NCBI GenBank assembly: GCA_946413585.1
Contig: CAMKLG010000022.1
Coordinates: forward strand, 1 to 43,596
DNA: 43,596 nucleotides
Direction: 5' to 3'
Source: an uncultured Bacteroidales bacterium
GTDB lineage: Bacteria; Bacteroidota; Bacteroidia; Bacteroidales; WCHB1-69
Shown: positions 133 to 36,833 of the stretch, in pieces
Position numbering within the stretch: the first letter of the stretch is position 1
How the letters are laid out: each line of letters begins with the position of its first letter
Program-made: the position numbers and the translations under genes
Notes under the pieces: model-generated
The model's database searches: none
What the model saw: only the letters and a program-made list of their open reading frames with translations
What the model was told of the DNA's origin: nothing

Positions 133-167
133 AAAGGCCGTCCGGCAGTTTTTCGGACGGCCTTTTT
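133..167 (+). terminator. Rho-independent terminator
   Basis: A perfect 9-bp stem (GGCCGTCCG at 136-144, CGGACGGCC at 154-162) with a 9-base loop is followed by TTTTT. It is flanked by AAA on the 5' side. It ends the upstream cargo gene. Confidence 0.9.
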
Positions 168-201
168 GAAATATAAGAACTTTTACAAAAGAACAAGAAA
201 T

Positions 202-3200
202 ATGAAAAAACATTTATGGATTCTGACAATGCTGATCGGGATGTGCATTGCTCAGTTACAGGCACAGGTGACACTGCTCGACGAAAGTTTTGAAAACGGC
301 ATCCCGACCACTTGGACGCTGATAGATGCCGATGGCGATAACAATAATTGGATGGCTCCGACGTATGATCTTGACCCTCTGTATAATAATGGTCATACGG
401 GTTCCGGTTATGCTTTTTCGTTGTCCCGTAATGGCGTGGCGCTCACGCCCGACAACTGGCTGGTGACCCCTCCTCTCACATTGGGGACCAATAGTACGCT
501 GAGTTTTTTTAGAATGGTGGCCCGGAATCTGGCAGAGGAACACTATGGCGTATATATCTCCACGACATCTCCTACCGACACCTCCTCTTTCACCCTTTTA
601 TATGAGGAGACTCCCTCTTTGCAGACATTCGCATGGACACAACATACGTTGGATTTGAACAACTATTCAGGCACGGTCTATATTGCTTTCCGCCATTTCA
701 ACTCCACCAATCTAAATGTGATCGCCCTTGATGACATCACGGTGACCACCACCACCACGGCTGCCTCTATTTTGAGCAATCCTACGCAGTTGTCGTTTGA
801 CAATGCCATTGTGGGGGGTGCCACGCAGGCGCAGCCGGTGACGGTCGTGGCTTACAATGTCACGACAGGTCTCACGGCCACGACGGATGCTCCGTTTGAG
901 ATCTCTGCCGACAACATCAACTTTTCTGCTACCGCTACGCTCGCCGATACGGGTGGCGTGCTGTATGTGAGATACTTCCCCACGGATGAAGGAACAGACA
1001 ACGGTGTTTTGACCATTTCCGACGGTGCGGTCTCACAGACGGTCCTTCTGACGGGTACTAGCCTGGATTGCAGCTACATCACTTTGCCTTACGAACAGAA
1101 CTTTGACAGCACGGCGCTCGGTAACATGCCTGCTTGTTGGCAGCGGATCAATCTGTTTGAAAATTATGGTCTGAACTTCCCGTGTGCGATTGAATCCTAT
1201 CCTCATAGTGGCGAAAATTCTTTGGAATTTGAAAATGATTTCCAACATGGCACGCCTACATACGTGATTCTGCCTTTGATGCCCCAAAGTATCAACAATC
1301 TGCAACTCTCTTTCTGGAGTCGCAGAGGCGGTGCTTCCGCCGGCACCTTCAGTGTGGGCTATATGAGCGATTTGACGAACACCGGCAGTTTCGTCCCTGT
1401 GTGGAGCACGTCCGGTGCGACGGCTCCTTTCCAATACGAACCTATTGTGGTGAGTTTCCAGGATGCGATGGCCGATCTTTCTCAAGATAATTACATCGTG
1501 TTCAAATACCAATCCACCGCTTACTACTCTTGGTATGTGGATGATATTTTGGTGGAGGAGATTTCCACCTGTCCCAGACCTACTGAGATGACAACGAACT
1601 TGGTGACCAGCCATGCGGCCACCCTCTTATGGACGGGTTCTGCTGATAGTTATGTGGTGTATTATAGACCTGATACGGCAACGGTATGGGATTCTATCAC
1701 GAATGTTGTGTTGGGTGATGATGGTTTTGTGCTGGACAATCTGCTTGCCAGCACCACCTACGAATGGTACGTGGCTTCCGTCTGCCCGGACGGAACTTTG
1801 TTGGACTGCATAGGCACTTTCACTTTCACGACGGATTGCGAAACTTTTGCCGTTCCTTACTTGGAGGATTTTAACGCTCAGAGTAGTCTGCAGGACTGCT
1901 GGACTAAAATGTCGGGCTGGGCCAACGAAATTTTCGCGGGCAACCCTACCACCCCCGTTTCCTCCTACACCATCTGGAACTTTTCCAGACAGCAGATCTT
2001 TGGTCAATACCACCCCGTTTTGAATATTTACGGTACAGGCTGTAAATATTGGCTGGTGTCTCCTGCCATTGATTTGGGCACGCTGACGAATCCTGTCCTC
2101 ACTTTCGACCTGGCTGCGACGGCGTACAACAGTAGCGATCCCATTAACCCTCATGGCCAACAGGATGACAAGTTCATGGTGGTGATCTCCACGGACAATG
2201 GTGCCACTTGGAGTGCCGCCAATGCCACGGTTTGGAGCAATGACGGTTTGGGCGACTATGAATTCAACCAGATTCCCGCCTCGGGACAAGAGGTGACCAT
2301 CTCTTTGGCGGCTTATGCCAACCAAACGGTGAAGATTGCCTTCTATGGCGAGTCAACGGTGGACGGCAACGGCGATAATGACCTTCATATCGACAATGTG
2401 GCGGTGATGCAGGGCTCTTCATGCCCCAAACCGACTCAACTGATCGTGATCAATGAGGACAGCAACGCGGTTACTTTGGGATGGACGGAGATGGGCCAAG
2501 CCACTTCTTGGAACATCAAATACGGCCCTGCCGGTTTCGATGTGGAAGACAACACGGCGACGATGGTTGTGGCCAATGCCAATCCGTTCACGGTGACCAA
2601 CCTTGCCGCCGGTGTCCCTTACGAGTTCTACGTGCAGGCCGCCTGTAGCGACGAACCGAGTCTCTGGGCCGGTCCTGTCGCAGCTACCACAAACGCCTAT
2701 AGTATGCCTGCGAACGGCACCGATACGGTATATACCTGTGCTATGGTGATCTACGACAATGGGGGCATGCATGGGGATTACAACGCCTCTTGTAACGGCG
2801 CTGTGGTGGTTTATCCCACCATTTCCGGCAACTACATCACGGTTTCGGGTTCCTACGAAACAGAGCACAATTTCGATTTCATTCGTTTCTATGATGGCGT
2901 GGGCACGAATGGTACACTGTTGGGCGAGTTCTCCGGTAACGGCACCCTCCCGGTGCTTGTGGCTGCCAGTGGTCCGATGACCATTCAATTCACCTCAGAC
3001 TACGGGTTGCAGAATAGCGGATTTGAACTGCTTGTGAGTTGTAGCGACTGCGCGCCTCCTGCCAATGTGACGATCTCTGAGCTGACGGCCACCACGGCAG
3101 TGCTGAGCTGGGATAACGACGGCTCCTTGGACTGGATGGTGGAATACAAGGCGGAAAACGACACGGCATGGGAGACCCTGACGACTTCCGACACAACGAT

Positions 3201-5487
3201 CACTTTGGAGGATCTGAATCCGTTGACGACCTACGTGGTGCAAGTCTCCTCCGAATGCGGAACGGGATATTCTGATCCCCTTGTCATCACCTTCTCCACG
3301 CCTATGCAGGTTGCTTCGCTGCCTTACAGCACCGATTTCAACGAAACCTCCGACCGGAACTGGACGCTTAACAATGGTTCTTGCACGAACTATTGGATGA
3401 TGGGAAGCCTCAATGACAGTGTCAGTGCGCTTTTCGTTACGCCTAATGGCACCAGCGCTTCCTACAACAGCGAATCTTACAGTGTGGTTTCAGCTGAGAA
3501 GCTCTTCACGGTGGGACAAACGGGTGAGGTTAATATCAGCTTCGATGTGAAGGTTGGCGGTGAGGACATCTTTGACTACCTCAAGGTCTTCTTTGCTCCG
3601 GCCGATGTCACTTATCCGGCATCCACGGGCATTGTCTCGTATGCGGCTGCTGACTATTCCGTAAATGCTGTTGACTTCACGGACTATTTGCAATATTCCG
3701 GAAGCGGAAGCGAACCTTATATGTTCAATTTGACCAGCGGTAATACGGTACACGTGGAGGTCTCCATGCCGAATCCCAACACAGACCCGACGGCCAGCTC
3801 CACGGGTAAGTTGGTGTTCTTGTGGAAGAACGACCAAACCACGGGTACCAATCCGGGTGCGATTATCTACAACGTCTCTGTAATGGCTTCCACTTGTAAC
3901 ACTCCTTCCAACCTGACGGTCTCTAATATCAACAGCAATACCGCTGATGTCGCTTGGATTTCCGAGGCTTCTACCTGGAATCTGGAATACAAGGAGGTAG
4001 ATGCCACCACTTGGACTTCTGTCGTGGTGACGGGTACTCCTTCTTACCAGTTGACGGGATTGTCCACAGGTACGGCGTACGATTTGCGTGTGCAGGCCGT
4101 TTGTGGTGCCACCGAGGTCTCCTATTGGAAGAACGCCACTTTTGTTACGCCTTGTGATGCCATCAACACGTTCCCTTATACAGAAGGTTTCGAACATGAT
4201 GGCGCTATGCCGGAGTGCTGGAATCAGGAATATCTGAACGGTATGGTGAATTGGACGATAAATAGTGGTAACTACGGCACTGTTGGCATGTCTGAGGCGC
4301 ATAGTGGTGACTACAATGCTTATTTCCATAGCTCTAGCATTGTTTCAACCCGACTCGTCACTCCGCCTTTCGACCTTACGGGTTTGACGAATCCGTATGT
4401 GACCTATTGGTTTTCACAAGCTTCTTTTGGCGGTGATATTGATAACCTGAAAGTCTATTATCGTACCTCTCCGGCCGATGAATGGCATGTTCTGGCCCAG
4501 CATTTTGCCCCTGTCGCAGTATGGACCATGGACTCCTTGTCATTGCCTGCGCCGTCAGCCTCCTACCAGTTGGCTTTTGAGGGATATACGCACGATGGTT
4601 ACGGTGTCACCTTGGATGACATCACCATTAATGGCTCTGTTTCTGTGCTGACCGAACCGACGGCCACCACCGCTGCGGCCACCAATGTGCAGCAGACGAG
4701 CGCCACCCTCAACGGTTCCATCAGCAATCCTGACAACGTGACGATTACCGCGCAAGGTTTCGAATGGAAGGCCAGTGCCAGCGGTACCTACGTGGCTGTG
4801 AACGCCTCGGGCACAACGATGACCTACAACCTCACTGGTTTGACGGCCAGCACGGATTACACCTACCGCGCATTCGTGACCACGGCCAACGGTACACACT
4901 ACGGGGATGAGGTGACCTTCACGACATCAGAAGAGTCAGGAAACCCGTGCGAAACCCCGACGGAATTGAACCAACTTATATCTGCAAAAGAAATTGGTGC
5001 AATTACGGTTTCTTGGATTGATAATGCTGGTGCAACGCAATGGAATTTAAATTATCGTCCACTTAACGGTACCACTTGGATTACGGAGTCTGTTTCAACC
5101 TATCCTACGTACACCATTCCAAATCTGGTGAATGGCGATCAGTATGAAGTTCGTGTACAGGCTGTGTGTTCTGAAGATAACCTAAGTGAATGGTCTTCGA
5201 TTCTCATTGCTACTGCCACTAATAGCGGCATAGAGAACTACTTGGAGAACAGCGTGACCCTGTACCCGAATCCCGCCAAGGAATACGTCGATATCCGCGT
5301 TGACGGCGATGTGAATGTCAAGGGAATGGAAGTGTATGATGTGTATGGTAAGGTTGTTCGCACTGTTGTGGGGGCGAATAATGATTCTCCCATCCAAATC
5401 AACGTTTCCGATTTGTCCGCAGGCATGTATTTCGTGCGCGTGACGACCGAACAGGGTGTGGTGACGAAACGGTTCGTGAAGAGATAG
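202..5487 (+). CDS. Secreted multidomain adhesin-like protein with T9SS sorting domain
   Basis: This 1761-residue protein is predicted to be exported by Sec and then moved across the outer membrane by the type IX system. The start at 202 gives a clean signal peptide (MKKHLWILTMLIGMCIAQLQAQ); an in-frame ATG at 166 overlaps the preceding terminator. By eye the order is: choice-of-anchor J / cleaved-adhesin-like module (about 24-187), further such modules near 290-456, 547-740, 1037-1230 and 1317-1480, fibronectin III-like modules near 459-546, 741-833, 951-1033, 1230-1316, 1484-1576 and 1584-1672, and a CUB-like module near 844-950. The last 80 residues carry YPNP (about 1687) and the Gly-Met-Tyr-Phe-Val-Arg pattern of a type A sorting domain. 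Porphyromonas gingivalis haemagglutinin/gingipain adhesin regions use related modules. No catalytic domain was seen, so adhesion or matrix binding is an inference. Boundaries are approximate. Confidence 0.9.
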   Translation: MKKHLWILTMLIGMCIAQLQAQVTLLDESFENGIPTTWTLIDADGDNNNWMAPTYDLDPLYNNGHTGSGYAFSLSRNGVALTPDNWLVTPPLTLGTNSTLSFFRMVARNLAEEHYGVYISTTSPTDTSSFTLLYEETPSLQTFAWTQHTLDLNNYSGTVYIAFRHFNSTNLNVIALDDITVTTTTTAASILSNPTQLSFDNAIVGGATQAQPVTVVAYNVTTGLTATTDAPFEISADNINFSATATLADTGGVLYVRYFPTDEGTDNGVLTISDGAVSQTVLLTGTSLDCSYITLPYEQNFDSTALGNMPACWQRINLFENYGLNFPCAIESYPHSGENSLEFENDFQHGTPTYVILPLMPQSINNLQLSFWSRRGGASAGTFSVGYMSDLTNTGSFVPVWSTSGATAPFQYEPIVVSFQDAMADLSQDNYIVFKYQSTAYYSWYVDDILVEEISTCPRPTEMTTNLVTSHAATLLWTGSADSYVVYYRPDTATVWDSITNVVLGDDGFVLDNLLASTTYEWYVASVCPDGTLLDCIGTFTFTTDCETFAVPYLEDFNAQSSLQDCWTKMSGWANEIFAGNPTTPVSSYTIWNFSRQQIFGQYHPVLNIYGTGCKYWLVSPAIDLGTLTNPVLTFDLAATAYNSSDPINPHGQQDDKFMVVISTDNGATWSAANATVWSNDGLGDYEFNQIPASGQEVTISLAAYANQTVKIAFYGESTVDGNGDNDLHIDNVAVMQGSSCPKPTQLIVINEDSNAVTLGWTEMGQATSWNIKYGPAGFDVEDNTATMVVANANPFTVTNLAAGVPYEFYVQAACSDEPSLWAGPVAATTNAYSMPANGTDTVYTCAMVIYDNGGMHGDYNASCNGAVVVYPTISGNYITVSGSYETEHNFDFIRFYDGVGTNGTLLGEFSGNGTLPVLVAASGPMTIQFTSDYGLQNSGFELLVSCSDCAPPANVTISELTATTAVLSWDNDGSLDWMVEYKAENDTAWETLTTSDTTITLEDLNPLTTYVVQVSSECGTGYSDPLVITFSTPMQVASLPYSTDFNETSDRNWTLNNGSCTNYWMMGSLNDSVSALFVTPNGTSASYNSESYSVVSAEKLFTVGQTGEVNISFDVKVGGEDIFDYLKVFFAPADVTYPASTGIVSYAAADYSVNAVDFTDYLQYSGSGSEPYMFNLTSGNTVHVEVSMPNPNTDPTASSTGKLVFLWKNDQTTGTNPGAIIYNVSVMASTCNTPSNLTVSNINSNTADVAWISEASTWNLEYKEVDATTWTSVVVTGTPSYQLTGLSTGTAYDLRVQAVCGATEVSYWKNATFVTPCDAINTFPYTEGFEHDGAMPECWNQEYLNGMVNWTINSGNYGTVGMSEAHSGDYNAYFHSSSIVSTRLVTPPFDLTGLTNPYVTYWFSQASFGGDIDNLKVYYRTSPADEWHVLAQHFAPVAVWTMDSLSLPAPSASYQLAFEGYTHDGYGVTLDDITINGSVSVLTEPTATTAAATNVQQTSATLNGSISNPDNVTITAQGFEWKASASGTYVAVNASGTTMTYNLTGLTASTDYTYRAFVTTANGTHYGDEVTFTTSEESGNPCETPTELNQLISAKEIGAITVSWIDNAGATQWNLNYRPLNGTTWITESVSTYPTYTIPNLVNGDQYEVRVQAVCSEDNLSEWSSILIATATNSGIENYLENSVTLYPNPAKEYVDIRVDGDVNVKGMEVYDVYGKVVRTVVGANNDSPIQINVSDLSAGMYFVRVTTEQGVVTKRFVKR

Positions 5488-5606
5488 TTTAGAGTTTAAG
5501 GTTTAAGGTTTAAGGTTTATGGTTTATGGTTTATGGTTTAGAGATTACCCCTAACCTCTAAACCTTAACCTCTAGGCTCTAACCCACAAACTCTCAACCC
5601 TAAACA
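5488..5606. repeat. TTTAGGG-like heptamer repeat, direct then inverted
   Basis: It starts directly at the stop codon of the adhesin gene. About eight heptamers of the type GGTTTAD run on the plus strand to about 5543, followed by the complementary form (AACCTCT, AAACCTT, AACCCTA) to 5606. Its first part matches the block after base 44, but contains extra heptamer units, as expected of slippage. Confidence 0.85.
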
Positions 5607-8794: not shown

Positions 8795-8822
8795 GTAGGG
8801 GCGAATAATTATTCGCACCTAG
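8795..8822. repeat. Palindromic repeat, GTAGGGGCGAAT family
   Basis: Arms GTAGGGGCGAAT and ATTCGCACCTAg enclose AATT, with one mismatch in the arms. Related copies are at 14522-14549 (inside a gene), 22368-22390 and 28553-28580. Confidence 0.8.
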
Positions 8823-8833
8823 ATTTACCCTCA

Positions 8834-8866
8834 AACAAATAGAGACGCCACAATGTGACGTCTCCA
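8834..8866. repeat. Palindromic repeat, GAGACG family
   Basis: GAGACG (8842-8847) pairs with CGTCTC (8859-8864), with an inner CACA/TGTG stem. The leading bases AAACAAATAGAGACGC recur at 34660-34675, so the two are related copies. Confidence 0.65.
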
Positions 8867-8899
8867 TGTATATGGTTTTCCGTAAATCAAAAATCACAA

Positions 8900-13637: not shown

Positions 13638-13645
13638 TACCTTTG
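13638..13645 (+). promoter_or_regulatory. -7 promoter box of the polyferredoxin gene
   Basis: TACCTTTG matches TAnnTTTG. It overlaps the first ATG of the open frame (13643), so translation must start downstream, at 13679. Confidence 0.65.
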
Positions 13646-13678
13646 CAGTTTCTTTTAAATGTCATAAAACCGACCCTA

Positions 13679-15208
13679 ATGCATAAGAAATCCTTACAAC
13701 GTATCCGGCGTGTGCTCGCAGCCATTTTCTTCCTTGGCATCACGCTGATGTTCCTCGATTTTACGGGGACGCTGCACAACTTTCTGGCGTGGATGGCCAA
13801 GGTGCAATTCCTGCCCGCAGTGTTGGCTCTTAACTTTATTGTTATTGCTATCTTGCTGGTTATCACTTTGCTGTTTGGACGAATCTACTGCTCGGTGATT
13901 TGTCCATTAGGTGTTTTTCAGGATGGCGTGGCGCATGTCCACAATTGGTTCAAGAAAGGTCGCTACACATATTCTAAGGCGCACAACATCTTGAGATACA
14001 TTATGTTGGGCATCTTCGTGGTGCTGATGATTGCCGGCGTGAACTCGTTGGCCGTATTGCTGGCTCCCTATTCCGCTTACGGCCGTATGGTGCAGAGTCT
14101 GCTCGGTCCCATCTATCAGTGTTGCAACAACGGATTGGCTGCCCTCAGCGAGCACTTCCACAGTTATACCTTCTACACTAAAGAGGTGTGGATGAGAAGT
14201 TTACCGACTCTCATAGTCGCAGCGGTGACTTTTGTGGTCCTGGTTGTCCTCGCATGGCGCAACGGTCGCACCTACTGCAACAACATTTGTCCGGTGGGCA
14301 CTTTCCTGAGCTTCTTCAGTCGTTTTTCCTGGTTCAAGATGCATATCAACGAAGAAAAATGCATCCAATGTGGAATGTGCACCAAGAATTGCAAGGCCTC
14401 CTGCATTGACGGCAAGAACGGATTTGTGGATTATTCGCGGTGTGTGACCTGCGGCAATTGCATGGCGGTGTGCCCGAAGGATGCGATTGAATATAAACAC
14501 GTCAAGGGTAATCCCACCCCCGTTGGCGCGAATAATCATTCGCCCCAACCGGCGGACAAAAAACCTGAGGAAACCGTTGATACCTCCAAACGCGCGTTCC
14601 TGATTGGTTCCGCAGTGGCATTGGGTACCGCTGCCTTAGCACAGGAAAAGAAGAAGGTGGATGGCGGTCTGGCCTTCATCGAAGATAAGGTGATGTTGGT
14701 TCGCAAAACGCCTATCGTGCCTGCGGGTGCGGGGTCGCTCCAACGTTTCCGTAATCACTGTACGGGTTGCCAACTCTGTGTGTCACAGTGTCCTAACGAT
14801 GTATTGCGTCCCTCGACGACCCTTTTGCACCTGATGCAACCCGAGATGTCGTTCGAGCGCGGCTATTGCCGCCCCGAGTGCACCGCCTGTGGCGATGTTT
14901 GTCCGACCGGCGCGATACAGAAGTTGCTCAAGGAGGAGAAGGCCGTCACGAAGAAAGGGCAGGCGTTCTGGTTCGCCCAAAACTGTATCGTGGTGAGCGA
15001 CGGCGTTTCGTGCGGCAACTGCGCACGCCACTGTCCTGCCGAGGCTATCGAGATGGTTCCGTTGCGTGGCGACACCACCGGCCGTAAGCTGATCCCTGCC
15101 ATCAACGAAAGCAAATGCATCGGCTGTGGCGCATGCGAGTATGTCTGCCCCGCCCGCCCGCTCTCCGCCATTTACGTCGAAGGCATCGAACAACAACGAA
15201 CAATCTGA
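13679..15208 (+). CDS. Membrane-bound polyferredoxin, NapH-type with extra 4Fe-4S domains
   Basis: This 509-residue protein is a predicted inner-membrane electron carrier. Its first ~225 residues hold about five membrane segments and the two CxxxCP motifs of the NapH/NosR family (YCSVICPLG near 70, YCNNICPVG near 200). Two 4Fe-4S motifs follow near 228 (CIQCGMC) and 255 (CVTCGNC). After a linker and a Tat-like/membrane stretch (SKRAFLIGSAVALGTAALA near 302-320) comes a NapG/NapF-like half with CTGCQLC near 361 and three more clusters (CRPECTACGDVC, C-x8-CGNCARHC, CIGCGACEYVC). The linker contains a 28-bp palindromic repeat read in frame (residues about 282-291). The neighbouring aldo/keto reductase also carries 4Fe-4S clusters, so they may exchange electrons. 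Redox partner and substrate are unproven. Confidence 0.85.
   Translation: MHKKSLQRIRRVLAAIFFLGITLMFLDFTGTLHNFLAWMAKVQFLPAVLALNFIVIAILLVITLLFGRIYCSVICPLGVFQDGVAHVHNWFKKGRYTYSKAHNILRYIMLGIFVVLMIAGVNSLAVLLAPYSAYGRMVQSLLGPIYQCCNNGLAALSEHFHSYTFYTKEVWMRSLPTLIVAAVTFVVLVVLAWRNGRTYCNNICPVGTFLSFFSRFSWFKMHINEEKCIQCGMCTKNCKASCIDGKNGFVDYSRCVTCGNCMAVCPKDAIEYKHVKGNPTPVGANNHSPQPADKKPEETVDTSKRAFLIGSAVALGTAALAQEKKKVDGGLAFIEDKVMLVRKTPIVPAGAGSLQRFRNHCTGCQLCVSQCPNDVLRPSTTLLHLMQPEMSFERGYCRPECTACGDVCPTGAIQKLLKEEKAVTKKGQAFWFAQNCIVVSDGVSCGNCARHCPAEAIEMVPLRGDTTGRKLIPAINESKCIGCGACEYVCPARPLSAIYVEGIEQQRTI
14522..14549. repeat. Palindromic repeat inside the polyferredoxin gene
   Basis: Arms GTTGGCGCGAAT (14522-14533) and ATTCGCCCCAAC (14538-14549) enclose AATC with one mismatch. 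The sequence is a member of the GTAGGGGCGAAT family found between genes at 8795 and 28553, but here it is translated as PVGANNHSPQP in the linker between two 4Fe-4S halves. Confidence 0.85.
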
Positions 15209-18954: not shown

Positions 18955-20289
18955 ATGAATTACCGGATAACCAAAGGTTTGGATCTTAAAATCGCAGGTG
19001 AGGCAGATGATAACCTGTTGCCGATGAAGTCTCTGGTGTACGTCTATGTGCGGCCATCCGATTTTCGTTGGCTTACACCGAAACTGCTTGTGCAGCAGGG
19101 AGATGCTGTGCAAGTGGGCACACCGCTGTTTTGTGATAAGAAAGACGAACGGGTCGTGTTTGTTTCGCCCGTGGAGGGTAGGGTGGAGGAGATTGTACGT
19201 GGCCAAAAACGTGTCATTGAGGCCATTACGATTACTTGTGAGAAAGATGCCGCTACGGAAAAGACGGTCGATTTTGAGGAGCCCTTGGATGCCGAATCTA
19301 CACGTAAACTGCTGTTAACGTATGGGTTATGGCCATGCTTGCGGCAACGCCCTTTCTCGGTCATTCCCTCTCCAGAGGCACGTCCTAAGGCACTCTTTGT
19401 CCCTTGTTTCGACTCTCATCCGCTTGCACCCGATTTCAACATCCTGTTGCGCGGTCTGGAAGAACAATTTTTGTATGGACTGAAGATGCTGCAACGCGCG
19501 GCGGGTAATGTGCCTACATGCCTATGTATGCGCGAAGGTGCTGAAAACCAGTTGTTTGAAAAGGCTGAAGATGTACAAAAACATTATTTTAGCGGTCCGC
19601 ACCCTGCCGGAAATGTCGGCACGCATATCCATTCCATAGATCCGATAGGCAAGGATGAAACCGTATGGTATGCAGATCCGCAAGATATAGCCCGCATCGG
19701 GGAGTTTTTCCTCCATCATCGTTTGTGTTTTCAAAAAACAGCAGCTTTGACTGGCTCAGCAGTGAAACACACGGGCTACTTTTCCACGATTTACGGAGCA
19801 GACCTCTCCTCCCTTTTGGTAGAGAATCTCACCGAGGAAAATGTCCGGATTATTAGCGGTAATGTGTTGAGAGGTAACGCGTTAAAACAATACCTTACGT
19901 TGGGCTTTTACGACCGGCAGATTACGGTGATACCGGAAGGCGGAAAACGTGAAATCCTCGGTTGGCTGCTGCCCGGATTGAAAAAGTGGAGTCTGTCGCG
20001 TACCTTCTTGGCTTGGCTGACCGCGAAACGGATTTACGAGGTCAACACCTCGCTTCACGGAGGTCGCCGTGCCGTCATGATGACGGACGTTTATGATAAA
20101 GTTTTTCCCTTCGACCTGATGCCGTTGCAGCTGCTCAAAGCCTGCGAAATCAAGGACATAGAACAGATGGAGGCGTTGGGGATTTACGAGGTTGACAGTG
20201 AGGACTTCGCCCTCTGTGAACTTGTTTGCCCCTCGAAAAAAGATTGGCAGCGGATTGTGGAGGAGGCGCTATATTCCATAAAGGGCTGA
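18955..20289 (+). CDS. nqrA: Na+-translocating NADH:quinone reductase subunit A
   Basis: This 444-residue protein is the peripheral, quinone-associated A subunit of Na+-NQR, which couples NADH oxidation to sodium export. The N-terminus MNYRITKGLDLKIAGEA and the stretch FVPCFDSHPLAPDFNILLRG are characteristic, and the length fits the family (about 445-450). It has its own -7 box. The stop codon TGA (20287-20289) and the last residues lie in a GGGCTGAAAGCCC repeat, so the C-terminus ends in repeat-derived codons. nqrB follows after 162 bases of repeats. Confidence 0.95.
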   Translation: MNYRITKGLDLKIAGEADDNLLPMKSLVYVYVRPSDFRWLTPKLLVQQGDAVQVGTPLFCDKKDERVVFVSPVEGRVEEIVRGQKRVIEAITITCEKDAATEKTVDFEEPLDAESTRKLLLTYGLWPCLRQRPFSVIPSPEARPKALFVPCFDSHPLAPDFNILLRGLEEQFLYGLKMLQRAAGNVPTCLCMREGAENQLFEKAEDVQKHYFSGPHPAGNVGTHIHSIDPIGKDETVWYADPQDIARIGEFFLHHRLCFQKTAALTGSAVKHTGYFSTIYGADLSSLLVENLTEENVRIISGNVLRGNALKQYLTLGFYDRQITVIPEGGKREILGWLLPGLKKWSLSRTFLAWLTAKRIYEVNTSLHGGRRAVMMTDVYDKVFPFDLMPLQLLKACEIKDIEQMEALGIYEVDSEDFALCELVCPSKKDWQRIVEEALYSIKG

Positions 20290-20334
20290 AAGCCCGACCT
20301 ATGTCAGCCCAGGGTGAGCGCAGCGAGCCCTGGG
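20281..20334. repeat. GGGCTGAAAGCCC double-hairpin repeat at the end of nqrA
   Basis: Nearly identical over 53 bases to the copy at 16822-16877. Here the GGGCTGA of the first hairpin provides the final Gly codon and stop codon of nqrA. Confidence 0.85.
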
Positions 20335-22473: not shown

Positions 22474-25400
22474 ATGAAAAGAATCATCACCGCCACCATG
22501 GTCATCACCACCCTCATCACCGCCTCCGGACAGTCCCAGTCCCCGGCGGCAATCGCCAAGAAATGGGACGAAATCCGCCACCTGTGCGAGAAATACGACG
22601 ACGGCGCGGACTCCGCCTACCGCATCCTCAACGAGCAACTTGCCGCCACGCAGAAGGAGCCCGTGGCCAATGCGATATGGCACAGTTGTATGGGGCAGTT
22701 CCTCGACGAGTATTACAACGAGAACCGCTATCGCCTCCGCCAGCGCACGGAAGTTGCCGACGAAACTCCCAAAGACTTCAAGGAGTGGGATGACAAGACA
22801 TTGAAAAAACGTATGCGGCATGAATATCTGCAGTCGCTTCATAATGCGGAGACGTTGCAGGCGATTCCGATTTCAGATTGGAAAACCTTGTTCGATTTGA
22901 AGGACTTCACCCCCTATTCCCATTTCACCCTATACGACATTCTGGCCCAGCGCTACCTCAAGGCGATAAAACAGTTGTTGGCAGATGAAGGGGATCTTAA
23001 CTTTGAGTTTGGAAGTGACAATCGCCTTTGGGATACGGAATCTTTCCTGAAAATGCCGCTTCGTTTGGAGGACTCTTGTTCGGAAATGCACACCGCGCTG
23101 GCCGTGTATCAGCGACTTATCGACTATCATCGGAGACTTGGCCACGAGAAGGAGTGGGTACAGCTCTCTTTGGACCGTTTCGCGTTGATGATCGCTCAAG
23201 CACTTACCCCTGACATGACCGATACGAGGTATATTGACCTGCTGACCGACTTCGGGAAATCTTTGGAAAACAGTGAAGCCTACGCATACGTGGCCTATCA
23301 GTTGGCGGTGCTGTACGTGCAACGGAGCCACGATTATAACGCACAAACAAGACCCGAATATCGATATGATTTGGTCAAAGCGCTTAATCTTTTGGAAAAG
23401 GCCCTGCCTTTTTTGGATGAATCATACGTAAATTGGGCGGAAAAACTGATGAATTCCATCCGTGAGCCTCTTGTTTTAGCTCATCCGACGTTTGATGCCG
23501 TCCCCGTCCAAACACCGATTTTGTGCGACATTGAATACAAGCAATATACAAAGCTTTATGCCCGCCTCGTTCCGGTGACACATGCCCAGTGGAAGCAGGT
23601 GATGGCCAAGTCTTACCACAAGATGTCGTCTCAGCAGTACAAAACGGTTCTCTCCATCAAATCGGTGTTTGAAGAAGTGGTGGAACTGCCTGATATGGAG
23701 GATTTTCAATCGCATTCGGGAAAGTACATGCTTCCGTCCCAACCCGCCGGCGAATACCTGCTACTGTTGTCGGACAGCCCTTATCCGAATGAAATCGACC
23801 ACTGTCAAGTCATTAGTTACGTGCAAGTCACGGATATTCAAGTTGAAAACAGGGAGACGGATAAGGAACAAGAGTTCTATGTGGTGAACAGGGTTACTGG
23901 CGAACCTTTGGAAAACGCAATAATCAAGATGACAGTCTCTGATCAGCATAGCAAAAGTTCCAATACCTATCATCTTGTGACCGACAAGAGCGGCTATGCC
24001 CGGATAGATTTTCCCTATATGCAAAGCATGATGGACAATTTGAGTGTGACTTGGAACCATCAGACGCTATATGCTTTGGAAACGTCCTATTGGTATAAAA
24101 ACAGACAGGAAGCAAGGACAGAACAGAAATGTGAGCTGCTGACGGATAGAAACCTATATCGTCCAGGTCAGACATTGTATTTCAAGGGTGTTGTCACGGA
24201 GGAGACGGTTGATAAAGGAGAAACGAAGCATTACTCCTTGATCAAGGGGCAGGAATATATGGTGGCTTTGCGGGATGTGAATCATCAACTGGTCGCTGAG
24301 AAAAAGGTGACCACCAACGATTTCGGCTCTTTTGACGGCTTTTTCCAATTGCCGGAGGGTGGCTTGACGGGCCGCTATACGCTCCACGTAAAGACAGCGA
24401 GAGCGTGGATAGGGACTTCCTATGTCCGGGTGGAGGAGTACAAACGTCCCTCTTTCGAGGTGCGGATGGAAACGCCCAAAGATTTGGTGAAAATAGGGCA
24501 AACTGTTACCGTAGAGGGTTTTGCGGAGGCTCTGGCCGGTTATCCGATTGGGGATGCAGTCGTCCAATATGCGGTATATCGGGAAACTTCGTTTCCGTGG
24601 TTTCGCCCCTATTATAAACCCGATCTACAAACTCAGGCTGTCGTGAGCGGGCAAACGCAGACAGATGCCGCCGGACGTTTCACCATTTCCTTCCCGACCG
24701 AGGAGGTGGCTTCCATAAAGCAATACACTCCGTTGTACCAATATTTGATAGATGTGACCGTTACGGATATCAATGGCGAAACCCATACGGCAAGTTCGGA
24801 AGTGCGAGTTAGTGAACGTAGCCTGTCGCTCTGGATCCAATTTCCGGAAGAAATACGGACAGACTATACTGAAAACCGCTTCCCGGTGACATTGACCAAT
24901 ATTGCAGATGCGCCGCAAGATGGTACGGTGCTTTACGAAATTTTCAAGCTGACCGCACCAGCGGTTTTCTATCATTCTGTCTCAAAAGGAGATGTGGAAA
25001 TCACCCCGATGTCGGAGTTGCGCAAGCAGTTTCCAAATTTGGCTTTTGCTGGAGAGGATGACAAGAGCAATTGGTCTGCGAAATTGCTCACTACAGGTTC
25101 CATTATTTGTGATAAAGGGAAAGATAACTTTTTTGAAATTCCTGGCCTTTCGAATATGCAGAGCGGTTATTACCGGATTTGTTTCAAAACTCAGGATCCC
25201 AATGGAGAATGGGTGGAGGCGAATCGGGAGGTCTACCTGTATGATGGTTCCGAGACGTCCTATAAGGGTTACAGCCCGTTGTGGTTCGATTTGGCCACGA
25301 TGTATTACACTTCGGGCGGTTACCAAGTGGAGGCTGGGGAAACGTTGCGTTTCCATGTGGGTAGTTGTTTGGACCATGCGATGGTGTTATGCGAGATGGT

Positions 25401-28400
25401 CCAAAACGACAGTGTTGTCAAAACGGAATGGCTTGAGTTGCATAAGAATATGGTGGAGATAGCCTATCCTGTCCTGGAGACCTCGAACGGTAAGCTCACT
25501 ATTAATTTGTATATGGTTTCGGATAACTACAGGCTTAGTTTGACTCCCACCGTTACCATCGTCAATCATCAGAAAGACATCCGTTTTGAGTTTTTGCGTT
25601 TCCGTAACAAAACGTTGCCCGGCAGTCAGGAAGAATATCAGGTGCGATTGCTCAATCATCAGGGAGAACCCGCTTTGGCGGAATTGCTGTGCACCATGTA
25701 CGATTACTCCTTGGATGCGTTGTCTGGAAGGACCCATTTCCTGAATCTTGGTTTTAATCATTCGTACAGGTCAAGACGACTGCGTCTCCAGACGATTTCC
25801 ACGGCAACCATTATATTGCAACAGAAGTACTTTAACACCGATTATTACACAAAATCGTTCCGTTCCTCGTTTCCGGATTTTCGCTCTGATTTCGGTAACT
25901 GTAATGGTACCAGATATTTACGAAAGTGGGTATCAACGGGCGTTGATTTGGAAACAGGCGAGGAAATGCCAATGTATCAGCAAGAAATGGTACTTAATGT
26001 CGTTGAGGATAGAGCTGGGGAACCTGCTGCCGTATTTTTCGACGAGGCAGAGTATGCCGCTTCAAAACAGTCGGAAGCAGCAGTAGCTGTGTTGGGAGGT
26101 TCTTCAGCCCCTGTCATCCGCACCAATTTTTCCGAGACCGCCTTCTTCTACCCGCAGCTGCGCACCGACGGACGCGGCGACGTCTATATCAGCTTCACCA
26201 TGCCCGACGCACTCACCAAGTGGAAGATGCAGGGCGTGGCCCACAACCCTGACCTTCAGTGTGGCCGCTTCGAGAAGTTCGTGCAGACCGCCAAGGACGT
26301 GATGATCGTGCCCAACGCCCCGCGCTTCCTCCGCGAGGGCGACACCATGGACTTCTCCGCCAAGGTGGTGAACATGAGCGGCAAAACCCTGTGTGGGTAC
26401 GTGACGTTGCAGATGTTCAATGCGATGAATGGCAAACCGTTGGGGATGATTTGTGAAATGTCCCGTGGCGACGCAAGATTTTGCGTCGCGACCGCCGGTT
26501 CCCAACAATACGAGATTCCCGCCAACTCCTCCTCCGAAATCCATTTCCGCATCGTGGTGCCCGATGACGTTCCCGCCATCACCTACCGCATTGTCGCGCA
26601 CAACACTGACCCGAAAGACGTGGCCGGCGACGGCGAGGAGAAGACCCTCCCCGTGCTCACCAACCGCATGATGGTGACGGAAACGATGCCGTTCTATATA
26701 TCGGGAAAAGGCTCGAAGACGTTCACGTTCAACAAATTGCGGGATGCGTTCGGTGCGACGGACACGATGAATCGGAATTCGGACGCGATGAATCGCATTT
26801 CGGACGCGATAAATCGCGTCCCTACATTGAAACATTACCGCCTTACGGTGGAATGCACGCCCAACCCCGTCTGGTACGCCATCCAGGCGATGCCCTACAT
26901 GATGGAATACCCGCACGAGTGCAACGAGCAGCGCTTCAGCCGCTACTACGCCAACGCCCTCGCCACGCACATCCTGAAGGCCAATCCCGTCATCGAAGAG
27001 GTTTTCAACCGTTGGCAGGTGGAGAGTCCCGACGCTTTCTGCTCCGCTCTTGAGAAAAACCAGGAACTCAAGCAGGTGATACTGGAGGAGACCCCGTGGG
27101 TGCTCGACGCGCAGCGCGAAGGAGTCAACAAGCAGGCGTTGGCCGCCATGTTCGACTTCAAACGGATGGCCAAGGAGGAAGCCTCCACGCTGCGGAAACT
27201 GCAGCGGGCGCAAAACGGCGACGGTGGCTGGCCGTGGTTCAGTGGCGGCAAGAGCAGCGACTTCATCACACGGCACATCGTGGCGGGCTTCGGTCACCTG
27301 AAAGCCCTCGGCGTGAGCACCGACGTGGCCAACAGCACCCTCCACAGCGCTGTCTCCTACATGGACGAGCAGATGTACCAACGCTACCTCGACCGCAAGA
27401 AATACCACTACAATTACGTCGATGAGACACACTACCTCTACGCCCGCAGTTTCTACAAAGACAAGGTTTCCGCCAAGCACAAAGTCGCCTACGATACCTG
27501 CTACAAGGTGCTGTTAAGTAGCTGGAAGTCAGAGTCCTTCTACACCCAAGCGATGATCGCGCTCACCGCTTGGCGCAACGGCGACCAGAAGGTGGCGAAG
27601 GAAATTGTGGCCTACCTCAAGAGCATGGCCCAGCATGACGAGGAGATGGGCATGTTCTGGAAAAAGCAAGGCAGCGGTTGGTTCTGGTATGAGCAGCCCG
27701 TGGAACGGCAGGCGATGCTGATCGAGGCATTCCACACCATCACGCCGGAGGACGAGGAGTCCTTAGCGCAGATGCAGTTATGGCTTCTCAAGCAGAAGCA
27801 GACCCAGCACTGGAGCACCACGAAATCGACCACGGAAGCCATCTACGCGCTGCTGCTGAACAGGACGCTCGTAGCTGAGGACAAGACCGTGGCGGTCACC
27901 GTGGGGAACGTGCGTCTGCCAGACGAGACCGTGCAGACGGAGGCGGGCACCGGCTACTTCAAGAAGGCCTGGCCGGGCGAGGAGATCACCGCCGACAAGG
28001 CCAACGTGCGCATCGAGAAGGGCACCGACGGTCCCGCGTGGGGCGGCCTCTACTGGCAGTATTTCGAGAATCTCGACAAGATCACCCGCAGCGACGACAA
28101 GAACTTGGTCATCGAGAAGCAACTCTTCAAGGTGGAGAACACCGACAAGGGCGAGGTGCTGAAGGCCATCACGGCGGAGCAGCCGCTGCAGAAGGGCGAC
28201 AAGGTGCGCGTGCGGGTGGTCATCACCGCCGACCGCGACATGGAGTTCGTGCATCTCAAGGACATGCGCGCCGCTACTTTCGAGCCCGTCAACGTCTTCT
28301 CGCAGTACAAATACCAGGACGGCCTCTGGTACTACGAAGCCACCAAGGATGCGGCTACCCACTTCTTCATCGACTGGATGCCGAAGGGCAAATACGTTTT

Positions 28401-28521
28401 CGAATACACTTTGTTCGCCACCCAGTCCGGCGACTTCAGCAACGGCATCACGCACATCGAGTGCATGTATGCGCCGGAGTTCCGGTCGCATTCAGCGGGG
28501 GTAAGGGTGCAGGTGCAATAG
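22474..28521 (+). CDS. Alpha-2-macroglobulin family protein
   Basis: This 2015-residue protein has a signal peptide (MKRIITATMVITTLITASGQ) and is probably periplasmic or surface-exposed. Members trap proteases by covalent linkage. After a ~340-residue helical N-terminal region come macroglobulin domains, with ENAIIKMTV near 485 and DRNLYRPGQTLYFKG near 565 typical of MG2/MG3, and the A2M core (RTDGRGDVYISFTMPDALTK) near 1230. The thioester motif is CNEQ at 1483-1486 in PHECNEQRFSRYY, followed by the helical thioester domain and a C-terminal receptor-like domain. Two palindromic repeat blocks are read in frame at about 1331-1340 and 1430-1450. The DNA is GC-rich at 22474-22790 and after about 26100 but clearly AT-richer between, so the gene looks mosaic. 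Target proteases are unknown. Confidence 0.92.
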   Translation: MKRIITATMVITTLITASGQSQSPAAIAKKWDEIRHLCEKYDDGADSAYRILNEQLAATQKEPVANAIWHSCMGQFLDEYYNENRYRLRQRTEVADETPKDFKEWDDKTLKKRMRHEYLQSLHNAETLQAIPISDWKTLFDLKDFTPYSHFTLYDILAQRYLKAIKQLLADEGDLNFEFGSDNRLWDTESFLKMPLRLEDSCSEMHTALAVYQRLIDYHRRLGHEKEWVQLSLDRFALMIAQALTPDMTDTRYIDLLTDFGKSLENSEAYAYVAYQLAVLYVQRSHDYNAQTRPEYRYDLVKALNLLEKALPFLDESYVNWAEKLMNSIREPLVLAHPTFDAVPVQTPILCDIEYKQYTKLYARLVPVTHAQWKQVMAKSYHKMSSQQYKTVLSIKSVFEEVVELPDMEDFQSHSGKYMLPSQPAGEYLLLLSDSPYPNEIDHCQVISYVQVTDIQVENRETDKEQEFYVVNRVTGEPLENAIIKMTVSDQHSKSSNTYHLVTDKSGYARIDFPYMQSMMDNLSVTWNHQTLYALETSYWYKNRQEARTEQKCELLTDRNLYRPGQTLYFKGVVTEETVDKGETKHYSLIKGQEYMVALRDVNHQLVAEKKVTTNDFGSFDGFFQLPEGGLTGRYTLHVKTARAWIGTSYVRVEEYKRPSFEVRMETPKDLVKIGQTVTVEGFAEALAGYPIGDAVVQYAVYRETSFPWFRPYYKPDLQTQAVVSGQTQTDAAGRFTISFPTEEVASIKQYTPLYQYLIDVTVTDINGETHTASSEVRVSERSLSLWIQFPEEIRTDYTENRFPVTLTNIADAPQDGTVLYEIFKLTAPAVFYHSVSKGDVEITPMSELRKQFPNLAFAGEDDKSNWSAKLLTTGSIICDKGKDNFFEIPGLSNMQSGYYRICFKTQDPNGEWVEANREVYLYDGSETSYKGYSPLWFDLATMYYTSGGYQVEAGETLRFHVGSCLDHAMVLCEMVQNDSVVKTEWLELHKNMVEIAYPVLETSNGKLTINLYMVSDNYRLSLTPTVTIVNHQKDIRFEFLRFRNKTLPGSQEEYQVRLLNHQGEPALAELLCTMYDYSLDALSGRTHFLNLGFNHSYRSRRLRLQTISTATIILQQKYFNTDYYTKSFRSSFPDFRSDFGNCNGTRYLRKWVSTGVDLETGEEMPMYQQEMVLNVVEDRAGEPAAVFFDEAEYAASKQSEAAVAVLGGSSAPVIRTNFSETAFFYPQLRTDGRGDVYISFTMPDALTKWKMQGVAHNPDLQCGRFEKFVQTAKDVMIVPNAPRFLREGDTMDFSAKVVNMSGKTLCGYVTLQMFNAMNGKPLGMICEMSRGDARFCVATAGSQQYEIPANSSSEIHFRIVVPDDVPAITYRIVAHNTDPKDVAGDGEEKTLPVLTNRMMVTETMPFYISGKGSKTFTFNKLRDAFGATDTMNRNSDAMNRISDAINRVPTLKHYRLTVECTPNPVWYAIQAMPYMMEYPHECNEQRFSRYYANALATHILKANPVIEEVFNRWQVESPDAFCSALEKNQELKQVILEETPWVLDAQREGVNKQALAAMFDFKRMAKEEASTLRKLQRAQNGDGGWPWFSGGKSSDFITRHIVAGFGHLKALGVSTDVANSTLHSAVSYMDEQMYQRYLDRKKYHYNYVDETHYLYARSFYKDKVSAKHKVAYDTCYKVLLSSWKSESFYTQAMIALTAWRNGDQKVAKEIVAYLKSMAQHDEEMGMFWKKQGSGWFWYEQPVERQAMLIEAFHTITPEDEESLAQMQLWLLKQKQTQHWSTTKSTTEAIYALLLNRTLVAEDKTVAVTVGNVRLPDETVQTEAGTGYFKKAWPGEEITADKANVRIEKGTDGPAWGGLYWQYFENLDKITRSDDKNLVIEKQLFKVENTDKGEVLKAITAEQPLQKGDKVRVRVVITADRDMEFVHLKDMRAATFEPVNVFSQYKYQDGLWYYEATKDAATHFFIDWMPKGKYVFEYTLFATQSGDFSNGITHIECMYAPEFRSHSAGVRVQVQ
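26465..26492. repeat. Palindromic repeat inside the macroglobulin gene (GACGCAA type)
   Basis: Arms GTGGCGACGCAA (26465-26476) and TTGCGTCGCGAC (26481-26492) enclose GATT with one mismatch. It resembles the CGTAGAGACGCGA palindrome at 36805-36833 and is translated as RGDARFCVATA between two macroglobulin-type strands. Confidence 0.8.
26760..26822. repeat. Three tandem 21-bp palindromic units inside the macroglobulin gene
   Basis: Units at 26760-26780, 26781-26801 and 26802-26822 begin GGACacGATGAATCG, GGACGCGATGAATCG and GGACGCGATAAATCG. The last unit is a perfect hairpin (GGACGCGAT / ATCGCGTCC). They encode DTMNRNS, DAMNRIS and DAINRVP. The 21-bp period keeps the frame. Confidence 0.85.
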
Positions 28522-29524: not shown

Positions 29525-30238
29525 TTACAACCTCCCTTCTTCCACAAAACTGTAGTACCGGTCTTTGTGGATGATGATGTGATCGACCAGAATCAGATCC
29601 ATGAGTTCGGCTGCGCGGTGCAGTTTCTCCGTCAGCTGGATGTCGGTGCGGCTGGGGCGAACCGAGCCGGACGGATGGTTGTGGCATAGGATGATTTGCG
29701 TGGCCTTGTTCAGTACTGCTTCCTCCATCACGATGCGCGTGTCAACCCCAGTGGAACTGATACCTCCTTTGCTGATTTGGCATGTGTGCAGGATGTGGTT
29801 GGCGTGGTTGAGGTATATCGCCCAGAATTCCTCATGGTCAAGATGGGCGATCTTGTCCTGCATCAAGTTCACGACGTCTCGCGAATGGAGGATTTGCAAG
29901 CTTTCCTCCACCTCTTCTGCACGGATGCGCTTGCCGAGTTCAAAGGCGGTGAGCAGGGCAATGGCTTTGGCCTGCCCGATACCCTTGACTTTCGAAAGCT
30001 CCCGCAACGACATGTCAGACAGCGCGTTAAGACTGTTCTTCGAAGCGGCAAGCAATTTCTTAGCTAAATCCACAGCGGAATCAGTAGTGTTCCCGGTACG
30101 CAACAATATGGCGATAAGTTCCGCGTTTGACAAGGCTACGGCACCGTTTTTGGCGTATTTCTCTCGTGGTCGGTCTTGGACGCTCCATTCTTTGATTGTC
30201 AGTTTTCGGTTTTCGTAGGTTTGGTTTTGTCGGTTCAT
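29525..30238 (-). CDS. radC: RadC family JAB-domain protein
   Basis: This 237-residue protein has an N-terminal helix-hairpin-helix-like part (SELSKVKGIGQAKAIAL region) and a JAMM/MPN+ domain with HNHPSGSVRPSRTD, containing the HxH and the downstream Asp that bind zinc. RadC proteins were once linked to DNA repair; their real role is unsettled. The start MNRQNQTYENRKLTIKEW at 30238 puts KLTIKEW..DRPREK at the usual place; the open frame extends 15 codons further into a palindromic repeat. It lies 53 bases after the DUF58 gene on the same strand and may be co-transcribed. Confidence 0.93.
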   Translation of the reverse strand: MNRQNQTYENRKLTIKEWSVQDRPREKYAKNGAVALSNAELIAILLRTGNTTDSAVDLAKKLLAASKNSLNALSDMSLRELSKVKGIGQAKAIALLTAFELGKRIRAEEVEESLQILHSRDVVNLMQDKIAHLDHEEFWAIYLNHANHILHTCQISKGGISSTGVDTRIVMEEAVLNKATQIILCHNHPSGSVRPSRTDIQLTEKLHRAAELMDLILVDHIIIHKDRYYSFVEEGRL

Positions 30239-30264
30239 TAGGTCTTTCGGTTTTCTCAAGTATT

Positions 30265-30292
30265 GTAGAGATGTTGCGCGCAACGCCTCTAC
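30265..30292. repeat. Palindromic repeat, GTAGAG family
   Basis: Arms GTAGAGATGTTGCG and CGCAACGCCTCTAC abut without a loop and differ at two positions. Its last base overlaps the stop codon of the DUF58 gene, and it fills the gap to radC. Confidence 0.8.
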
Positions 30293-36804: not shown

Positions 36805-36833
36805 CGTAGAGACGCGATTTTCGCGTCTCTACG
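36805..36833. repeat. Perfect palindromic repeat, GTAGAGACG family
   Basis: CGTAGAGACGCGA and TCGCGTCTCTACG form a perfect 13-bp stem around TTT. It is the best-preserved copy of the family in the window and lies between the FISUMP gene and the GT2 gene. Confidence 0.9.

Follow-up and report, generated by a model that had tools for sequence, protein, structure and literature searches.

A probable array of REP-type hairpins at a reused in-frame address of an alpha-2-macroglobulin gene in uncultured Bacteroidales

How does a protein gene come to hold three consecutive 21-bp palindromic units in its open frame, and are they an old part of the protein or DNA that was inserted into it? We addressed this question in a window of 43,596 nt, the whole stretch of DNA analysed, which is contig C22 of an assembly of 125 contigs (2.98 Mb, 87.8% complete) whose named relatives are uncultured Bacteroidales, mostly from the rumen. 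The host gene (22474..28521, + strand) encodes a protein of 2015 aa of the alpha-2-macroglobulin (A2M) family, with MG2 (residues 556-653), A2M (PF00207, 1222-1311) and bMG10 (1879-2002) domains and a thioester-type motif that reads CNEQ. Within it, Tandem Repeats Finder reports a repeat at 26759-26817 (period 21, 2.8 copies, 89% matches), in agreement with the initial annotation, which had recognised three in-frame 21-bp units in this gene. The units themselves span 26759-26821 and their codons 26761-26823, one base later than the 26760..26822 first given, and translation returns the same peptides, DTMNRNS, DAMNRIS and DAINRVP.

The three units read GGACACGATGAATCGGAATTC, GGACGCGATGAATCGCATTTC and GGACGCGATAAATCGCGTCC(CTACA). 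Unit 1 (26759..26779, +) is an internal unit of GGAATTC type with one substitution (GGACACG), unit 2 (26780..26800, +) is a penultimate unit of CATTTC type, and unit 3 (26801..26826, +) contains a palindrome at 26802-26821, followed by CTACA, which is perfect (9+2+9), as had been noticed from the letters. On the - strand this last unit becomes GTAG-GGACGCGATWWATCGCGTCC, a hairpin with a GTAG tag at one end only. The sequence GGACGCGATNNATCGCGTCC, allowing up to 3 mismatches, has 2 matches in the window against 0.01 expected, and a search of Rfam at gathering thresholds gave no match at the element. As single-stranded DNA the hairpins fold well (z of -4.7 and -4.2), which is what movers of this kind need and is no proof of movement. 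The Cys of CNEQ follows 34 residues after the end of the block, and in an AlphaFold2 model of a 461-residue A2M fragment (45 rows, mean pLDDT 69.8, pTM 0.45) this address, which we call site 1, falls inside a stretch (187-241) with pLDDT below 50 and is, judging from the model, likely a linker.

We collected orthologous or related rows of the A2M gene from sixty relatives and a named genome collection (109 rows, 94 distinct). In the display of the 29 rows with at least 50% identity, site 1 is filled in 10 and empty in 19; in the 17 closest (at least 82%, own gene included) it is filled in 10 and empty in 7. The more distant rows shown lack an insert there, and four rows below 50% identity (L040-L043) are empty too. 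The 63-base array is an insertion, and an in-frame insertion missing from distant orthologues is also what characterises the palindromic elements of Rickettsia. Filled and empty alleles differ by about 9-14 junction bases besides, so that the 63 bases are not the clean indel for which the initial annotation proposed to look. The frames are open, with no stops inside the matches among the sixty relatives. It is true that the frame is kept and that the residues of the units are similar, as they would be in an old protein motif which is palindromic by chance, but the distant orthologues shown have no such residues, in these or in unrelated codons, the encoded peptides track the DNA core (AINR, VPWR, ARRA, VSGN, AVHH) and the same DNA also lies between genes. 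With orthologues empty, we rejected this reading as extremely improbable. The proposal that a repeat element inserted close to the thioester domain tolerates translation is supported, and the comparison with orthologues that the initial annotation had named as its possible refutation did not overturn it.

Other species fill this address in more than one way. Arrays are found in the genome under study (3 units) and in the relatives G021 (4) and G006 (6), and a single 28-bp palindrome occupies the place in G027 (with one arm change), G028, G001, G013, G005 and G003; these six copies have five core types, TGGTGCACCG, CGGCGCGCCG, TGCCATGGCG (twice), TTTCAGGAAA and CGATTAATCG, and a further row (L072) holds a GGACGCGATGAATCGCGTCC-type copy. 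The arrays share one layout, (GGACGCGATGAATCGGAATTC)n followed by the CATTTC unit and an end unit with CGCGTCCCTACA, in identical order in the three species, and only the number of GGAATTC units changes (1 in our genome, 2 in G021, 4 in G006). This does not agree with the suggestion that the first two units were progressively worn as copies were added at one end. With 3, 4 or 6 units at one locus in related genomes, the array resembles in-frame variable-number tandem repeats, and differs from them in that a dispersed palindrome seeded it. The tandem pattern, at 3 mismatches, has matches in 6 of 40 same-genus genomes, among which we read arrays in the same three only. G006 and G021 each carry two further array loci close together (G006:C43, G021:C10), and the start of contig C74 of our own genome matches the second of these; our assembly shows no RAYT-type gene (REP-associated tyrosine transposase) next to it, the contig beginning at that array. 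The short non-coding arrays beside hydF have 2, 2 and 3 units, one unit of our own genome measuring 22 bp, and they are the one support for a 21-bp period that is not set by codons.

The hairpins of these arrays and the single palindromes differ in their tags. In fetched same-genus DNA, 13 distinct GGACG-N10-CGTCC (GG-type) hairpins, a set partly picked by pattern searches, have GTAG at one end in 9 cases, at none in 4 and at both in 0, whereas among 143 AGACG-N10-CGTCT (AG-type) hairpins the tag is present at both ends of 115, at one end of 20 and at neither end of 8 (an alternative selection of AG-type copies gives both ends in 118 of 146). From these counts we conclude that there are two related classes side by side, one-ended hairpins, of which the arrays are made, and two-ended palindromes of 28 bp with the form GTAGAGACG-core-CGTCTCTAC. 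The former carry GTAG at one end as GTAG REPs do; in the latter it is paired with CTAC, and CGTC is not the unpaired end of a CGTC REP either, since it lies internally and pairs with GACG.

The array type is found again inside a gene that looks, from its sequence, like the REP's own transposase. At one of the further loci, a RAYT-type gene contains an in-frame array of 21-bp units, six in G006 (L252 12483-13181, 232 aa) and four in G021 (L253 9986-10642, 218 aa), so that this locus is present in two of the three array-bearing species. The ORF matches the REP-associated tyrosine transposase family NF047646 over two stretches with 62 bits, below the curated cut-off of 80 because the array (DADAINP/NADAINH...DAINRVPT) sits between them and splits the domain. 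Its Y1_Tnp match is weak, and its best match of solved structure is TnpArep (4er8, E 2e-4), in which the two stretches are closer together. Plasmid homologues with about 30% identity have 26 and 31 fewer residues over the array span, a third match having shorter coverage. Beyond the gene, GTAGGGACGCGATTTATCGCGTCC begins 7 nt after the stop, and a second short array, ending in CTAC and lying about 90-110 nt past the stop beside hydF, forms with it an inverted pair with GTAG outward. At this one locus, in G006 and G021, array-type hairpins thus lie beside a RAYT-type gene, in the layout of GTAG REPs, and with the one-ended tag they show both features that define GTAG REPs; the two-ended palindromes show neither.

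For the latter we inspected 20 better-scoring Y1 genes of the genus, of more than 100 listed, and none had a member of the family within 400 nt, that is, in 0 of 20 Y1 loci do copies flank the gene. Their surroundings hold 2 copies in 65.9 kb, and since less than one such neighbour was expected by chance, the result indicates a lack of association rather than avoidance, and leaves the two-ended palindromes, which are the great majority, without a known mover. Of 60 genomes, 53 have Y1 domains; three that are poor in copies (G016, G033, G034) have none, but G031 (0 copies) and G011 (7 copies) have one each. Around copies we counted 19 convergent, 18 divergent and 78 tandem gaps, on a background of simple ORF calls of 173/166/654, which is not the preference for tandem and convergent gaps of GTAG REPs, and the absence of any shortage in divergent gaps ruled out a role at transcript ends.

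The description by Di Nocera, De Gregorio and Rocco (2013), so far as its available portions go, covers GTAG REPs, RAYTs and in-frame copies, and places GTAG REPs in Proteobacteria, Cyanobacteria, Chloroflexi and PVC bacteria and CGTC REPs in Bacteroidetes (PMC3733652). Set against those portions, our array type agrees with GTAG REPs in its one-end GTAG, outward inverted pair, adjoining RAYT-type gene, clusters and in-frame copies, and the two-ended palindromes depart from them in their paired GTAG/CTAC, the absence of Y1 neighbours in 20 loci and the lack of orientation bias; an array within the transposase gene itself is not mentioned there (PMC3733652). The likeness to coding palindromes of Rickettsia, first proposed for this locus, is fair as an analogy, as those elements, too, are palindromic DNA found within the reading frames of proteins as well as in intergenic DNA, but, in the portions of the sources at hand, they are 105-146 bp long or are CGTC repeats (RPE-4, RPE-6) (PMC2229807, PMC3733652). 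In the open-licence PMC literature we recognised no paper that describes the family in Bacteroidales, or its translation within A2M, sorting tails or a RAYT gene. What appears new is that Bacteroidales have REP arrays that are translated, both in secreted proteins and in what looks like the transposase gene of the REP itself, where the length of the array could influence how the element spreads.

Our preferred reading, which we consider probable, is that a REP-type hairpin with a GTAG tag at one end makes up the 63 bases as a tandem array, at an in-frame address of the A2M gene that has been reused; in other species this address is empty or holds a two-ended 28-bp palindrome from a related family. 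A RAYT-type enzyme may have spread the GTAG-GGACGCGAT hairpin, after which slippage in 21-bp steps would have changed the number of units. The insert would survive because each 21-nt unit is 7 codons long, the palindrome is free of stops in two of its three frames, and the sites it occupies are loops or linkers. The one-ended tag, the linked transposase gene, the other palindromes at the address and a second site in the gene are features beyond those of the initial annotation.

This second site (site 2) lies at 26465..26492 (+), where an in-frame palindrome has altered arms (GTGGCGACG-CAAGATTTTG-CGTCGCGAC) and orthologues have GTAGAGACG-core-CGTCTCTAC. Of the 17 close rows, 16 have it filled and G028 keeps a shortened remnant; in the AlphaFold2 fragment the site is a predicted loop with strands (67-77 and 102-109) on either side. 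In 66 pairs from the 12 rows with recognisable arms (five of the 17 being left out), flanks at site 2 are 0.191 divergent, arms differ at 0.17 of 18 positions and cores at 5.09 of 10; in 15 pairs of the six single palindromes of site 1, with the arrays and L072 left out, the figures are 0.191, 0.67 of 18 and 6.20 of 10, a constancy of the arms that is partly built in, as rows were picked by arm pattern. On a tree of 19 rows computed with both sites left out, site 1 has undergone at least 6 filled/empty changes plus 7 core changes and site 2 at least 7 changes of core type. Among 20 loci of A2M paralogues (34-42% identity), at least 4 of which were picked for a known copy and which are no random sample, 11 have a palindrome at the equivalent of site 2, in the common frame RD....VST, and 9 do not; none of the 20 has one at the equivalent of site 1.

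That filled and empty alleles alternate on the tree, that paralogues are also filled at the loop and that right junctions at site 1 vary (CTACATTG or CTACAACC) are what one would see if palindromes had been inserted repeatedly and independently at the same tolerant loop, and then lost, with no replacement of cores in place. However, one left junction, G[AG]YGGTARAG, and one frame are common to all six single palindromes of site 1, and at site 2 the core types of G001 and G005 differ although their nearest flanks are near-identical, so that we hold independent insertion to be possible but doubtful. About as tentative is the import of alleles, in which recombination between species would move A2M segments together with their palindromes: the array and right flank of our genome (G000) match G021 and G006 while the backbone of the gene groups with the empty RUG312, near site 1 G001 and G005 differ in their flanks as well as their cores, and import can explain part of the data. 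Against it, core differences also occur at other places, both sites are alike within G003, within G001 and within L072, and cores fit the pool of their own genome.

This fit was assessed with 22 A2M copies from 10 genomes and permuted genomes (p = 0.0011), using pools that were hand-copied and hold 28-nt copies only, at most the first 50 listed per genome (6/22 for G001). It gives p = 0.00025 without G001, 0.007 without G003 and 0.055 without G003 and G028, that is, it comes mainly from two genomes; with the 15 orthologue copies alone, p = 0.003. As for the other places, a palindrome at the start of the radC-like ORF 29525-30283 (-), at 30265..30292, has three cores among our genome, G002 and G003 and is missing from G027 and G009, and an intergenic 27-nt palindrome at 36806..36832 likewise has three cores among our genome, G002 and G003. 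Between G006 and G021, at 94-98% local identity, alignable palindromes kept their cores, two others had no simple counterpart, and over about 25 kb shared we found no clean filled/empty case of recent insertion.

Returning to the preferred reading, at a filled address the core may have been replaced by one common in the same genome, either through a short copying event via the arms or by re-insertion. Local replacement, re-insertion and allele import may each account for core differences at one address. Self-correction in place is disfavoured as the sole source of cores, given that one fixed G.T asymmetry of the commonest core persists in 26 of 128 distinct copies. Hybrid palindromes, with half-cores from two core types, are rare in the fetched set, and examples were seen in G044 (C217:1551-1579 and others) and G013:C30:2259-2286. 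Two Xanthomonas genomes have different REPs at about the same recB site, according to the available portions of the GTAG REP study (PMC3733652).

Copies are not confined to the A2M gene or, as had been claimed for the rest of the family, to the spaces between genes. Besides site 2, an in-frame GTAGGGGCG-type palindrome (VGANNHSPQ) lies at 14522..14549 (+) in a linker of a 4Fe-4S protein (ORF 13643-15208), with 0 matches in 100 shuffles, and a worn in-frame copy (VGANNDSPI) at 5367..5393 (+) in the type IX sorting tail of ORF 166-5487; the latter was recognised visually, by comparison with the intact copy that the L177 tail carries, and is absent from the pattern-search list. Between genes the window has another GTAGGGGCG-type palindrome (8795..8822) and a 29-nt family member with 3 arm mismatches (8839..8867). 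A census of 1.38 Mb from 15 genomes, in stretches partly picked for A2M or for copies, found 147 copies, 22 of them at least 75 nt inside ORFs of at least 200 codons, so that in-frame copies, as known for GTAG REPs, occur here as well. Fifteen of these are in A2M genes; the other 7 are in type IX sorting domains (PF18962, 4 copies), a DXP synthase C-terminal domain (1), upstream of a glycosyltransferase domain (1) and in an ORF without family (1). The DXP synthase copy (L246 4585, G003:C77) is in frame as RD....VST. A profile seeded with those four sorting tails found 31 tails, of which 5 have a palindrome (the four seeds and one more). In the tails inspected (L216, L234, L238, L244, L177 and window 5367-5393) the palindrome is in frame at the turn after GK/GR, and L238 has neighbouring paralogues with one tail filled and one empty.

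These addresses allow a bolder reading, which we regard as improbable: fixed in-frame sites in loops of proteins that Bacteroidales secrete, namely A2M with its paralogues and type IX sorting tails, would be sockets for cores copied from the genome's own palindrome pool. If so, an exposed peptide (AINR, VPWR, AKFC, ARRA, VSGN, AMHC and others) would be rewritten in one step with frame and arms preserved. The family bears on how the smallest repeats spread and change, as it offers fixed places with constant arms and differing cores, in coding and other DNA of many related genomes, so that strain series should be able to tell replacement, re-insertion and allele import apart.

The two-ended family is widespread. 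The pattern GTAGRGAC-N6-24-GTCYCTAC has 58 exact copies in our genome against 0 for a reversed control, and with N10-14 it occurs in 35 of the 36 genomes of the genus, ours among them (0-252 exact-arm copies each), in 9 of 24 genomes from other genera within the order and in 102 of 395 evenly drawn Bacteroidota, at least 6 of those 102 also having one reversed-control match, so that single copies prove little. A 32-nt query returned 15 plasmid records, 14 of them cyanobacterial and two at 100% over 30 nt, for which we claim neither descent nor transfer between phyla. In a Halotia branconii plasmid (L315 1501-1531) a palindrome of this type falls within an open frame whose annotation is that of a cyanobacterial non-ribosomal peptide synthetase. 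The small dispersed repeats of Nostoc treated by Elhai et al. in 2008, reportedly short hairpins with recent mobility, are similar in this description; a two-ended palindrome of the present family is itself found in cyanobacterial plasmids. Two-ended palindromes were also seen in 109 stretches of predicted viral contigs, and among 75 distinct copies from 80 of these (L318-L397) the core CGATTAATCG occurs in 11.

Elsewhere in the window, the - strand at 20282-20334, between nqrA-like and nqrB/rnfD-like ORFs, matches the Rfam Acido-Lenti-1 RNA (RF01687) with 40.9 bits (gathering 37), and ORF 166-5487 is flanked at 45-126 and 5494-5605 by long imperfect inverted repeats, formed by runs of GTTTAGGG/GTTTAAGG-like repeats that face their complement.
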